Assembly (NCBI GenBank): GCA_022711635.1
Contig: JAKLEQ010000002.1
Location: 19,248-54,876, forward strand
Reading direction: 5' to 3'
Length of the DNA: 35,629 nucleotides
DNA from: Methanoregula sp.
GTDB lineage: Archaea > Halobacteriota > Methanomicrobia > Methanomicrobiales > Methanospirillaceae
The notes under the pieces are model-generated. The model was not told the origin of the DNA and did not search any database. It saw only the letters and a program-made list of their open reading frames with translations. A program made the position numbers and the translations under genes. Positions 13,670 to 18,292 of the stretch are shown in pieces; within the stretch, counting starts at the first letter, position 1, and the number at the start of each line of letters is the position of its first letter.

Positions 13670-14197
13670 TCAGTCCAGATACATAATCCGGAGCAGGCTC
13701 CTGCCGGTCTCCGTCCTGAAGATCCGGTGAAGCACGGATTCTGTCGCTTGTCGTTCCATCTCATCCTCAAAGATGTTGACGAGGAAGTCCGCTTCGACGA
13801 GGACCTGGAAGTCGATCCCGTCAATGTTCGTATAGGTGTGGTGGTTACCGGTGATGAAACAGACCCGGTCGATGATTGAGGGGGCGACACCGAGGTCGGA
13901 AAGGATCTGCCGGGCGATCGGCGGCCCTTCGATCTGCTGGTAATTCCCTGACGTTGAGTTGTATTTCCGCTCTGCTTCGTGGATCCCGATATCGTGGAGG
14001 ATGGCGGTGTATGCAATAATTTCCTGCAGCTCCGTCCCCGGGCATTCACGGGCGGCGATGATTTGGGCGAAGGAGCAGACCTTCAGCGCATGGTTGATCC
14101 TCTTTGCATCGCGCCCGAAGTATGCGATCATCCTCTCCATGACGCGGGAGAACGGAGGCGGCTCAACAGCACCTGTGCAGACCATCGAAGAATTCAA
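13670..14197 (-). CDS. HD-domain phosphohydrolase
   Basis: A 175-aa single HD domain. The metal-binding set is visible: NHALKV (His36), ILHDIGIHEA (His68-Asp69), ITGNHHTY (His119/120) and VEADFLVN (Asp137). Such proteins are metal-dependent phosphohydrolases, often of nucleotides; the substrate is not evident. The frame start at 14197 is a TTG overlapping the TGA of the upstream ferredoxin gene by four bases (TTGA), preceded by a G-rich GAGGGCGGGA. An ATG at 14185 is the alternative. The overlap implies translational coupling as last gene of the DUF4126-ferredoxin-HD operon. The gene converges on the beta-RFAP fusion, with only 20 bp between stops. Confidence 0.85.
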   Translation of the reverse strand: MNSSMVCTGAVEPPPFSRVMERMIAYFGRDAKRINHALKVCSFAQIIAARECPGTELQEIIAYTAILHDIGIHEAERKYNSTSGNYQQIEGPPIARQILSDLGVAPSIIDRVCFITGNHHTYTNIDGIDFQVLVEADFLVNIFEDEMERQATESVLHRIFRTETGRSLLRIMYLD

Positions 14198-15105
14198 GCT
14201 ATCCCGCCCTCGATTGTGATCGTCTTCTCTACAACTGGTATCGCTTTTCCGGATTTCTCCAGCGCCTTGTCAACGACAGCGCGGACGCCGCTGCAGCATG
14301 GCACTTCCATGTGGACGACCATGATCGACCGGATGGCATGGCGCGAGAATATCTCCGCGAGTTTTTCGATATACCCCGGGATATCCAGGTCCAGTTTCGG
14401 GCAGAAGATGATTACGATCCGGCCTTTCAGGAACTCCGGATGAAACCCCCCGTACGCGAACGGCACGCAGTCGGCGGCGATCAGCAGTTCGGCGTTCTCA
14501 AAGTAGGGTGCCGCCGGGTTTAAAAGGCTGAGCTGGACCGGCCATTGCCGGAGCTCTGAATCCGTTGCCCCGACTACCGGCTGCCGGGGTCCTCTGCCGG
14601 GTTCCCGGCGGATTGCCCGTGCTGCCGACCCCGGGCACGCCGCGAAACGGGAGGGATCGGGAGACCCGGGAGGGCAGACGATGCCTTCCCCCACATAGCC
14701 CGCTGCCAATTTACCGGAGGGGGTGGGAGCCGGCGTACGCTCCGGGGGAACATGATTCGGGATCGGGAGACCGTGCTCGATCAGGTACTCGATCGCTTCG
14801 TTGTAGAGCGCCACCTGCCCGTGACCGGCGAGGTGTTCGAGGTGGGCTTTGATGACCGGTGCGCCCTGTTTTACGATGGTTGCCATGACGGCCGCCTCGT
14901 TATAAGGTTCGGCCTCGCGTTCGATAACCGTAATCGCGCCTTCCGGGCATGTCCCGATGCAGGCCCCGAGCCCGTCGCAGAAGAGATCCGAGACGAGCCG
15001 GGCCTTTCCCTCGATCAACTGGAGTGCTCCCTCAGGGCAGTCCGGGATGCATTGGCCGCACCCCGTGCATTTCGTTTCATCGATGCTGATGATCTTCCGT
15101 TTCAT
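14194..15105 (-). CDS. 4Fe-4S ferredoxin-type protein with C-terminal Cys domain
   Basis: A 303-aa iron-sulfur protein. The first cluster motif is canonical, Cys13-x2-Cys16-x2-Cys19-x3-Cys23-Pro. The second reads CDGLGACIGTCPEGA with Leu46 where the second Cys is expected, so only three of four ligands are present. Residues ~105-175 form a Pro/Arg-rich linker. The C-terminal part has scattered Cys (AADCVPF, IIFCPKLD, VPCCSGV) that may bind another cluster or metal. I recall similar proteins beside hybrid-cluster-protein genes in strict anaerobes, but could not verify this. It starts three bases after the DUF4126 stop, with GGAGATGA as ribosome site inside that gene. Likely an electron-transfer component; partner unknown. 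Confidence 0.85.
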   Translation of the reverse strand: MKRKIISIDETKCTGCGQCIPDCPEGALQLIEGKARLVSDLFCDGLGACIGTCPEGAITVIEREAEPYNEAAVMATIVKQGAPVIKAHLEHLAGHGQVALYNEAIEYLIEHGLPIPNHVPPERTPAPTPSGKLAAGYVGEGIVCPPGSPDPSRFAACPGSAARAIRREPGRGPRQPVVGATDSELRQWPVQLSLLNPAAPYFENAELLIAADCVPFAYGGFHPEFLKGRIVIIFCPKLDLDIPGYIEKLAEIFSRHAIRSIMVVHMEVPCCSGVRAVVDKALEKSGKAIPVVEKTITIEGGIA

Positions 15106-15108
15106 TTT

Positions 15109-15696
15109 TCATCTCCGGGTTTCGGTTGTTCTGGGAGTAAGCTTTTTGCGCGACGGGAACTTCCACCGTAATACGAGAAGGATCCCTGCCGTGATGAGAA
15201 GAAGGACGAGGAGGGGTGCCAGTATCGCGACGACGGCCGTTGTCAATGACAGCAGATCTTCGATGAGGCTGACCAGCCAGTTTCCGGTACCTCCGGTTGC
15301 AAGGGTGACTGCAGGACGGGCCGCGACCTTGGCAGCGTGGACGCCCCCGGCGATCAGGAGCCCGGCGATGAAGGACAGCGCCGGGTGGAGTTCTCCCACC
15401 ACGCCGGCGCCGGCGATAAAGAGGATCGCCCCTGCCAGCGGGCGGCCGACAGTCTGGATAATATCGTTGAGAGAATCAACGACCGGGATCTTATCGGCCG
15501 TCATCTCGATGACGAGAAGAACTGCGAGTGCCGCGAGCACCCAGCCGTTCGTCAAAGTGTCCCACGGCTCATTGAGCGGGATGAGGGTCGTAGAGCGGGC
15601 GACCAGCCCGACGACGAGCAATGGCAGGTAAGCATTCAGTCCCGCCGCGACGGAAAGCCCGATGGCGCACGCGATAAGGATGACCGTCTCGATCAT
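15109..15696 (-). CDS. DUF4126-type integral membrane protein
   Basis: A 195-aa protein with about four to five hydrophobic segments (residues ~1-30, 50-65, 85-125, 150-178) and a short basic C-terminus (KFPSRKK). The pattern AAGLNAYLPLL near the start and the Gly/Ala-rich GRPLAGAILF and GGVHAAKV segments fit the DUF4126 family, which has no established function. It is the first gene of an apparent three-gene operon on the minus strand, three bases before the ferredoxin-type gene. AGGTGAT immediately precedes the ATG. Family call is moderately confident. Confidence 0.7.
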   Translation of the reverse strand: MIETVILIACAIGLSVAAGLNAYLPLLVVGLVARSTTLIPLNEPWDTLTNGWVLAALAVLLVIEMTADKIPVVDSLNDIIQTVGRPLAGAILFIAGAGVVGELHPALSFIAGLLIAGGVHAAKVAARPAVTLATGGTGNWLVSLIEDLLSLTTAVVAILAPLLVLLLITAGILLVLRWKFPSRKKLTPRTTETRR

Positions 15697-15796: not shown

Positions 15797-16156
15797 CTAC
15801 AGTACGCAAGCCTTGCAGTCCTGCTGTCCGCAGGGAATGTTGTCGATCTTCCACTTCAGTGCCCAGCGCTTGATGTCCCGGATCACATCGACAATCCCGA
15901 GCCCGCTCTCCGTCAGCGTGTACTCGGAACGGACCGGAAACGCGGTCGCATCAACGTGCCGGATGATGATCCCTTCGTCCTCCAGTTCTTTCAGCCGCTC
16001 CGAGAGGACCTTTGGCGTGATACCATCAAGGGCATCCCGGAGCTCGGTGAACCGCCGGGTATACCCCTCCCCCTTGTACAGCTCGAGGATGATGAGGAGC
16101 GTCCACCGCTTCGAGAGATACCGGACAGTCTTGTTGACCGTGCATGACTCCTGCAT
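15797..16156 (-). CDS. HxlR-family regulator with C-terminal CX4CX2C
   Basis: A 119-aa winged-helix DNA-binding protein, normal length for HxlR. Typical pieces are YLSKRWTLLIILEL, RFTELRDAL, ITPKVLSERLKELE and the wing with EYTLTESG. Cys5 is near the position of the redox Cys of some bacterial HxlR relatives (for example HypR). The C-terminus adds Cys109, Cys114 and Cys117 in CGQQDCKAC. Four Cys could bind an Fe-S cluster or form disulfides. It is divergent from hcp, 87 bp apart, with shared repeats between them. A TATAAATA box (minus strand, 16180-16187) predicts a leaderless transcript starting at about the ATG. It probably controls hcp and itself. Family call secure; sensing role is inference. 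Confidence 0.9.
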   Translation of the reverse strand: MQESCTVNKTVRYLSKRWTLLIILELYKGEGYTRRFTELRDALDGITPKVLSERLKELEDEGIIIRHVDATAFPVRSEYTLTESGLGIVDVIRDIKRWALKWKIDNIPCGQQDCKACVL

Positions 16157-16220
16157 GGTATGGTATTGGTAACTCCTGAATATTTATAATCTGGTATGCT
16201 ATTGATATTTTGTATCAATA
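16156..16220. promoter_or_regulatory. Divergent promoter/operator region of hxlR and hcp
   Basis: A TATA element (TATTTATAAT, 16181-16190) can be read on both strands. Two copies of a 16-bp repeat, TGGTATGGTATTGGTA (16156-16171) and TGGTATGCTATTGATA (16192-16207), match at 14 of 16 positions and are 36 bp apart. The second copy forms the left part of a perfect inverted repeat, TATTGATA-ttttg-TATCAATA (16200-16220). That palindrome covers the predicted hcp start site (~16212). The first repeat overlaps the regulator's own ATG, suggesting autoregulation. Confidence 0.7.
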
Positions 16221-16243
16221 AGAAATCAAATGGAGGATAAACA

Positions 16244-17860
16244 ATGTTCTGTTACCAGTGTGAAGAGACGGCACGAGGGACCGGCTGCACGATCAAGGGC
16301 GTCTGCGGCAAAGAGGAGGAGATCGCCGCATACCAGGACGCGCTCGTCTATCTCTGCAAGGGGCTTTCCGTGCGGAACCTTGCGGCAATGGAGATGGGGA
16401 AGGGCAACCCGGATGCGGGGCTGTTCATCGCGGATGCCCTCTTTGCAACACTGACCAACGTCAACTTCGATAAAGCCCGGTTCACGGAGTTCATCAACAA
16501 CGCCGTTACGATGAGGGATGCGCTCCCAAAGAGCGGCGCCAATGAACCGGATGCCTGCACGTGGAAGCCGAAGGGTGATGCCGATATCCTTGAGAAGGCA
16601 AAAACCGTGGGGATCCTCTCGACCGCCAACGAGGATGTCCGCTCCCTGCGGTCAACGCTCCTCTTCGGCCTCAAGGGGATCTCCGCGTATTATACCCACG
16701 CTGCTGTTCTCGGCAGGACCGATGCGGCGATCGTCACGTTCCTCCAGAAAGGGCTCGCATCCACGATCCGGGACCTGCCGGTCCCTGACATGATCGCGCT
16801 TGTGATGGAGTGCGGGAGCACCGGGGTTAAAGTCCTCGCGTTGCTCGATGAGGCGAACGTAGCTGCGTACGGAAAGCCGCAGATCACCAGCGTGAAGACG
16901 ACAGTCGGGAAGCGACCGGGCATCCTGATTACCGGTCATGACCTGAAGGATCTCGAGATGCTGCTGGAGCAGTCGAAGGATACCGGCGTAGATGTCTACA
17001 CCCACGGCGAGATGCTCCCTGCCCACGGGTACCCTGCGTTCAGTAAATACCCGCACCTTGTCGGCAACTACGGCAGCTCGTGGTGGCACCAGAAGGAGGA
17101 GTTCGAACAGTTCAACGGCCCGGTCCTGTTCACGACCAACTGCCTCGTTCCCCCGAAAGACACCTACAAGGGCCGGCTCTTCACGACCGGCCTGACCGGG
17201 TTTCCGGGTGTCCCGCACATCGCGGCAGGCCCGGGCGGGAAGAAGGATTTCTCGAAGATCATCGCGCTCGCAAAGACCTGCCAGTCGCCAACAGCTCTCC
17301 CCGGCAGCGGGAGCGATATTGTCACCGGCTGTGCCCATGACGCGGTCCTTGCACTTGCCGACACGGTCGTCGGGGCCGTGAAGAAGGGAGACATCAAAAA
17401 GTTCATCGTCATGGCAGGCTGCGACGGCCGGCAGAAGGAGCGGGAGTACTACACCGCATTCGCAAAGGCCCTGCCGAAGGATACGGTCATCCTCACCGCC
17501 GGCTGCGCCAAGTACCGGTACAACAGCCTCGGTCTCGGAACCATCGGGGGTATCCCCCGGGTCCTCGATGCCGGCCAGTGCAACGACTGCTACTCGCTCG
17601 TCGTGATCGCGCAGGCACTGGCAAAAGCGTTCGGCGTCGGGATCAACGAGCTGCCGGTCTCGTACAACATCGCATGGTACGAGCAGAAGGCCGTTCTTGT
17701 GCTCCTCGCCCTCCTCTCGCTCGGGGTAAAGGACATCACGCTCGGCCCCAAGCTCCCGGGCTTCGTCTCCCCTGCCGTCCTCGATGTGCTCGTGAAACAG
17801 TTCGGTCTCAAGCCCAATACCACGGTACAGGCTGACATGGCCCGGATGGTAAAGGCCTGA
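16244..17860 (+). CDS. hcp: Hybrid cluster protein (hydroxylamine reductase)
   Basis: Cytosolic Fe-S/hybrid Fe-S-O cluster enzyme. It reduces hydroxylamine to ammonia in vitro and is linked to nitric oxide and peroxide stress in bacteria. The protein is 538 aa. The N-terminal cluster Cys are Cys3-x2-Cys6-x8-Cys15-x5-Cys21, the pattern of class I Hcp from strict anaerobes. Hybrid-cluster ligand regions appear as ECGSTG, THGEMLPAHGYP, TTNCLVPP, AGCDGR, TAGCAKYRY, DAGQCNDCYS and the EQKAV segment near the end. GGAGG lies seven bases before the ATG. It is divergent from an HxlR regulator whose likely operators overlap the start site. All expected motifs seem present, so it is probably functional. 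Confidence 0.97.
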   Translation: MFCYQCEETARGTGCTIKGVCGKEEEIAAYQDALVYLCKGLSVRNLAAMEMGKGNPDAGLFIADALFATLTNVNFDKARFTEFINNAVTMRDALPKSGANEPDACTWKPKGDADILEKAKTVGILSTANEDVRSLRSTLLFGLKGISAYYTHAAVLGRTDAAIVTFLQKGLASTIRDLPVPDMIALVMECGSTGVKVLALLDEANVAAYGKPQITSVKTTVGKRPGILITGHDLKDLEMLLEQSKDTGVDVYTHGEMLPAHGYPAFSKYPHLVGNYGSSWWHQKEEFEQFNGPVLFTTNCLVPPKDTYKGRLFTTGLTGFPGVPHIAAGPGGKKDFSKIIALAKTCQSPTALPGSGSDIVTGCAHDAVLALADTVVGAVKKGDIKKFIVMAGCDGRQKEREYYTAFAKALPKDTVILTAGCAKYRYNSLGLGTIGGIPRVLDAGQCNDCYSLVVIAQALAKAFGVGINELPVSYNIAWYEQKAVLVLLALLSLGVKDITLGPKLPGFVSPAVLDVLVKQFGLKPNTTVQADMARMVKA

Positions 17861-17923: not shown

Positions 17924-18292
17924 ATGACACCATCCAAGCCGGAAGAGGGGGAAGGAACCGCCGATAAGAAACGCGAGGCGCTCGCAGGAAGAGTCCTCAC
18001 CGTCAACGACCTCGTCCAGTACCAGGATGGGACCGTCGCAAGCCGCATGCTCGTCTTTAAAAAGACCGGCACCATCACCCTCTTTGCGTTCGATGCCGGG
18101 GAAGGGCTCTCCGAGCATTCAGCGCCATTCGATGCGGTCCTTTCCGTCACCGACGGCATCGCTGATGTCGCGATCGCGGGGGAGTGGTTTATGGTAAAAA
18201 GCGGGGAGATGATCATTCTTCCGGCGAACAAGCCGCACGCGATCTCCGCAAAAGAGCGGTTCAAGATGACGCTGACCATGATCCGGGAGTGA
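17924..18292 (+). CDS. Cupin-domain protein
   Basis: A 122-aa single-domain cupin. The first motif region contains GEGLSEHSAPFDAVLSV and the second GEMIILPANKPHAISA, giving His in each half and the usual Gly/Pro pattern. In this form one metal ligand of the classical set seems absent, so metal content is uncertain. Small cupins act as sensors, isomerases or dioxygenases; nothing here specifies which. The ATG lies 63 bp after hcp, and two small Cys-rich genes follow at once, so the three form a tight unit, possibly co-expressed with hcp. Confidence 0.8.
   Translation: MTPSKPEEGEGTADKKREALAGRVLTVNDLVQYQDGTVASRMLVFKKTGTITLFAFDAGEGLSEHSAPFDAVLSVTDGIADVAIAGEWFMVKSGEMIILPANKPHAISAKERFKMTLTMIRE

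Follow-up and report, generated by a model that had tools for sequence, protein, structure and literature searches.

Bacterial regulators of hcp, the gene for the hybrid cluster protein, are well described. HcpR, NsrR and NorR2 regulate hcp, often from a neighbouring gene, and in this they would resemble the archaeal regulator considered here. HcpR (CRP/FNR) and NorR (a sigma54-dependent activator) differ from it in belonging to other protein families and in acting at bacterial promoters; NsrR is a member of the Rrf2 family. The consulted passages of PMC1274295 describe the NorR2 sites at Vibrionales hcp genes as a tandem pair of dyads whose spacer is 7 bp, and mention archaeal hcp genes without an assigned regulator. 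The literature that we searched, with most subscription journals lying outside it, yielded no archaeal hcp regulator and no link between HxlR and hcp.

The closest described systems are YodB and QsrR, thiol-switch repressors of Bacillus and Staphylococcus in which the winged-helix HxlR fold carries a reactive cysteine near the N terminus and partner cysteines near the C terminus. YodB prefers TACT[7]AGTA and is thought to reach into two successive major grooves in the manner of QsrR (PMC8063818), and its switch joins Cys6 with Cys101' or Cys108' (PMC6798810). The archaeal locus shares with these systems the fold, the conserved N-terminal cysteine, C-terminal cysteines that may act as its partners, and a palindromic operator of 4-bp arms and a 7-bp spacer (in O2 and O3; the O1 spacer is 8 bp), to which HxlR presumably binds. 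It differs in its half-site (GTAT/ATAC), in the three operators around an archaeal TATA box, in having three C-terminal cysteines (CX4CX2C) and in its proposed target, which is hcp, whereas theirs are quinone reductases. Bacillus subtilis HxlR shares the PF01638 family and fold and is, unlike the proposed repressor, a formaldehyde-responsive activator (PMC7835342), a point against taking repression for granted. We consider it probable (about 0.72) that the 90-bp region between hxlR and hcp is a shared operator-promoter at which an archaeal, YodB/QsrR-like cysteine-switch HxlR represses hcp and itself.

The hxlR-hcp intergenic region

The window that we analysed is a stretch of 35,629 nucleotides from Methanoregula sp., in which hxlR and hcp are divergently encoded. 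The features relevant here are as follows.

15797-16156, reverse strand: hxlR, HxlR/DUF24-family winged-helix regulator, 119 aa; its ATG is the complement of 16154-16156
16158-16173, no strand: O1, 16-bp dyad-like site, GTAT-GGTATTGG-TAAC; forms GTAT-N8-WWAC, consensus GTAT-N8-AAAC
16181-16189, no strand: TATA box TATTTATAA, which reads on either strand; conserved over 106 loci
16194-16208, no strand: O2, 15-bp dyad, GTAT-GCTATTG-ATAT; consensus GTAT-N7-ATAY; just past the TATA box on the hcp side
16200-16220, no strand: palindrome TATTGATA-N5-TATCAATA, the junction of the O2 right half-site and the O3 left half-site
16212-16226, no strand: O3, 15-bp dyad, GTAT-CAATAAG-AAAT; form GTAT-N7-AWAY, consensus GTAT-N7-ATAC; over the predicted hcp start site
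16232-16236, forward strand: GGAGG, probable hcp ribosome-binding site, from the sequence and G-rich alignment columns
16244-17860, forward strand: hcp, hybrid cluster protein (hydroxylamine/NO reductase family), 538 aa; ATG at 16244

The hxlR product matches the Pfam family HxlR (PF01638) at 1.2e-21 and 76.8 bits, above the cut-off of 20.8, and the hcp product matches Pfam Prismane (4e-165) and the NCBIfam hydroxylamine reductase model (4.4e-239). Immediately downstream of hcp, and adjoining it, is a cupin gene (17924-18292 of the window). Behind hxlR, on the same strand, lie genes for a DUF4126 protein and a 4Fe-4S protein (14194-15105 and 15109-15696). In four other loci (L003, L012, L025 and L027) a similar 4Fe-4S gene likewise begins just behind hxlR, and the 4Fe-4S protein could be an electron donor to Hcp.

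A sequence-only reading of the region had pointed to two repeats, both of which are present. The elements TGGTATGGTATTGGTA (16156-16171) and TGGTATGCTATTGATA (16192-16207) are identical at 14 of 16 positions, and a perfect inverted repeat with 8-bp arms, TATTGATA-TTTTG-TATCAATA, occupies 16200-16220. The three TATTGRTA half-sites that it described (16164-16171, 16200-16207 and, inverted, 16213-16220), the TATA box readable both ways and the positions of both start codons are likewise borne out. When the 88-bp region was subjected to 4000 dinucleotide shuffles, an 8-bp-arm inverted repeat with a gap of up to 20 arose in 5.3% of them, so that the palindrome alone is a weak signal; the 14/16 direct repeat arose in 0.18%, and the direct and inverted repeats together in 0.05%. 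The pattern TATTGRTA-N5-TAYCAATA has a single place in the window and is matched without mismatch once in the whole genome.

The conserved unit in related loci

We aligned 106 divergent hxlR-hcp intergenic regions, 103 of which are distinct. Information content peaks at the TATA box and at three further places, where GTAT and A(T/A)AY flank weakly conserved centres. O1, which lies directly upstream of the hxlR ATG and also upstream of the TATA box, has half-sites of 1.5-2.0 bits and an interior of about 1.0 bit or less except for the G at 16169; the half-site columns of O2 reach 2.0 bits, and the distance from O2 to O3 is 18 bp. The O1 form GTAT-N8-WWAC is present in 98 of the 106 loci, GTAT-N7-ATAY in 86 and GTAT-N7-AWAY in 100, and GTAT-N7-ATAC at one mismatch or fewer is found in 104/106 linked loci versus 8.3% of shuffles. 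The window's own O2 and O3 are imperfect, with right halves ATAT and AAAT.

Among loci whose HxlR proteins are 60-70% identical, column identity is 88% in the half-sites, 77% in the TATA box, 49% in the operator centres and 45% in the gaps; the fourfold-degenerate positions of hxlR are 37% identical in the same comparison. Conservation thus sits on the half-sites and the TATA box and not on the spacers, which we count in favour of the operator reading, and this pattern indicates that three dyads of 15-16 bp around one TATA box are under purifying selection. The TATA box TATTTATAA is the putative hcp promoter and possibly the hxlR promoter too; its direction we infer. Complementarity exceeds the expectation for independent columns at two pairs in the O2 register (0.53 vs 0.42 and 0.55 vs 0.49) and at one pair in the O3 register (0.61 vs 0.50), the excesses being small and uncorrected for phylogeny. 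Since this excess is weak, we place the weight on the natural experiments described below.

The palindrome fares differently from the dyads. A search upstream of other Methanomicrobiales hcp genes had been suggested as its check, and the exact form matched one of the 106 loci, the window's own; a version with 6-bp arms is present in 18. The complementarity of its four outer arm pairs, at 23-50% of loci, is not above the independent-column expectation. A single dimer on TATTGRTA-N5-TAYCAATA with a lone half-site at O1 is therefore extremely unlikely, even though the window holds a perfect palindrome and ATAY-N3-GTAT occurs at the junction in 64 of the 106 loci; additionally, promoters with a single unit have no O2/O3 junction at all. 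The relatives thus rule out the palindrome as the conserved unit. The palindrome might instead form a hairpin in the leader RNA of hcp or have arisen by chance in A+T-rich sequence, in agreement with the 5% of shuffles that produce such arms, but the arms lose complementarity across relatives and the half-site columns are strongly selected, leaving this account with a negligible probability.

The expectation that the elements would be conserved near related hcp genes does hold, in the form of a cis-regulatory array that extends across the 106 loci and whose elements are three presumed dimer sites, GTAT-N7-ATAC (O2, O3) and GTAT-N8-WWAC (O1), in place of three TATTGRTA half-sites. As for the proposal that one dimeric regulator represses both genes, the layout fits and the array tracks the HxlR gene, but the unit was wrong. 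The lesson is that relatives, and not the best palindrome of one sequence, should define the unit of a regulatory repeat.

Association of the sites with hxlR and hcp

We examined an order-level set of 232 genomes (a class-level search gave the identical 232); the named relatives include Methanoregula, Methanocalculus, Methanospirillum, Methanoculleus, Methanocorpusculum, Methanofollis and Methanomicrobium, which places the window in the order Methanomicrobiales. The exact O2-N3-O3 tandem occurs at 41 distinct places in these genomes, 36 of them at hxlR-hcp, and a slightly looser form has one mismatch-free place in the window's genome. HxlR homologues (E <= 1e-15) are found in 126 of the 232 genomes and hcp in 117. 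In a tally made by hand with a regulator threshold of E <= 1e-40, 113 genomes have both genes, 113 have neither, four have hcp alone and two have hxlR alone (six discordant in all; Fisher 1.4e-58, a nominal value since the genomes are related). The single pattern GTATC-N5-GATAC has 0-9 places per genome in 25 genomes versus 0-2 for its reversed control. Two A+T-rich examples of this pattern were inspected as leads to a wider regulon; one falls within an open reading frame and the second lacks the layout of the hxlR-hcp promoter, and we therefore claim no additional targets.

Genomes in which the two genes have parted, or in which one has been duplicated or lost, provide natural experiments. 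Ten Methanocorpusculum hxlR promoters parted from hcp retain a lone unit. It is an exact GTAT-N7-ATAC in all seven that were scored and also in L122, and has one mismatch in L088 and L109. In L097 (G076) the two genes are separated by 69 nt, compared with 85-87 in most relatives (about 17 bp shorter), and there is one O unit fewer; a single perfect GTATCAAAAAGATAC remains. Conversely, ten hcp promoters without an adjoining hxlR carry the unit at zero or one mismatch, nine of them retain O1, and the TATA box stays with hcp in genomes whose hxlR sits elsewhere. The second hcp copy in ten two-copy Methanocorpusculum genomes has neither the unit nor O1. The second hcp copies of G213 and G215 (L136, L137) likewise have no sites, nor does the hcp of either genome that has no intact hxlR (L139 in G217, L161 in G020). 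The exception is L138, the only hcp found in G216, which has no sites though that genome has a divergent hxlR.

It could be argued that another regulator or a general factor binds the dyads and that HxlR is a mere neighbour. O1 gives this some support, because its 8-base spacer (7 in O2 and O3) and its right half, GAAAC in most loci, differ from the other sites, and O1 could bind another factor. Against this, sites accompany hxlR genes as well as hcp genes after the two have parted, they are missing from second hcp copies, they recur beside hxlR homologues that face different genes, and their 4-7-4 geometry is that of YodB (PMC8063818). We regard a different binder as very unlikely, and HxlR as the presumed binder of the dyads, O1 included.

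Because O1 persists upstream of hcp where hxlR sits elsewhere, its main function is probably something other than overlapping the hxlR start. The same persistence, together with the position of O1 upstream of the hcp TATA box and the fact that B. subtilis HxlR activates (PMC7835342), is what would be expected if HxlR mainly activated hcp through O1, with O2 and O3 repressing in the other state. This is unlikely, as the interval from the TATA box to the start codon, which holds O2 and O3, is one where a bound protein normally prevents initiation, and one O2-like site serves at several separated hxlR genes. Under the repression that we favour, and by analogy with YodB and QsrR, HxlR dimers would occupy the GTAT-N7/8-ATAC dyads, with O1 and O2 on opposite sides of the TATA box and O3 over the predicted hcp start. 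From there the bound dimers would cover the DNA next to the TATA box and mask the box together with the start sites, so that hcp would be off and hxlR autorepressed.

Three further loci are noteworthy. L131 (G020:C26) is a weak hxlR match (43% identity) with two in-frame stops, in a genome that has an operator-less hcp elsewhere. In L162 (G056:C1:869613-871850) an insert of about 1.5 kb between hxlR and hcp splits O1, so that its hxlR-side part stands at one end of the insert and its hcp-side part at the opposite end; the insert resembles a transposon-type insertion. L020 (G147:C26) retains hxlR and O1 with only about 30 N-terminal hcp codons matched, and no hcp was found at the cut-off in that genome.

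The regulator and its wider distribution

The HxlR protein of the window carries Cys5 and a C-terminal CX4CX2C motif (Cys109, Cys114 and Cys117). Cys5 is present in all 124 aligned homologues and the other three cysteines in 122-123 of the 124. The AlphaFold model (mean pLDDT 82) has a clear fold, whose best PDB match is the QsrR-DNA complex (4hqe), with YodB (5hs7) and HxlR with DNA (7bzg) also among the matches. Cys5 stands ahead of helix 1, which begins at residue 6, as is typical of the N-terminal cysteine of YodB and QsrR. The C-terminal cysteine segment is of low confidence (residues 115-119 below 50 pLDDT), and the model does not resolve the geometry of the cysteines. The protein scores below the cut-offs of the NCBIfam models for the redox regulators RrpB (50.6 vs 175 bits) and RrpA (42.9 vs 185 bits).

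We propose that a reactive nitrogen or redox signal, whose nature is conjectural, would modify Cys5 with Cys109, Cys114 or Cys117, perhaps across subunits as in YodB, and that the modified dimer would then leave the DNA and allow Hcp to be made. It is also possible, as a tentative suggestion that we think more doubtful than probable, that Cys5 and the CX4CX2C motif bind a metal or an iron-sulphur cluster; the protein would then be an NO-sensing HxlR, an archaeal counterpart of NsrR, governing nitrogen-oxide defence genes (hcp, a siroheme-type reductase, cupin) across methanogen lineages. If the proposed repressor reading is true, the module, which is conserved in several methanogen lineages, would offer a way into the question of how nitrogen-oxide stress is sensed by strict anaerobes, and the operator is short enough for a test in a single gel-shift experiment.

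A scan of named genomes extends the arrangement to Methanomassiliicoccales and other Thermoplasmatota, where many loci have hcp divergent from hxlR and repeat the succession O1, TATA box, O2 and, in most cases, O3; L261-L263 have O2 without O3, and some loci of that scan have no hcp at the place. A phylum-wide alignment search added hxlR homologues from two more families (f8 and f22), whose hxlR upstream regions contain O1, TATA box and O2, with O3 in some. The genes opposite hxlR in these families are hcp, a small NIR_SIR-domain reductase, a DUF166 gene or a cupin, and the cupin that is the divergent neighbour of an hxlR with operators in L333 is 53% identical to the one behind hcp in the window. 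We infer that the operators go with the regulator, whose targets would vary within the theme of nitrogen or sulphur oxide stress. In L248 and similar Methanomassiliicoccales loci the left half of O1 is GTTTC-like (GTTTC-N6-GAAAC in L248), and the two halves match each other better than do the halves of O1 in Methanomicrobiales.
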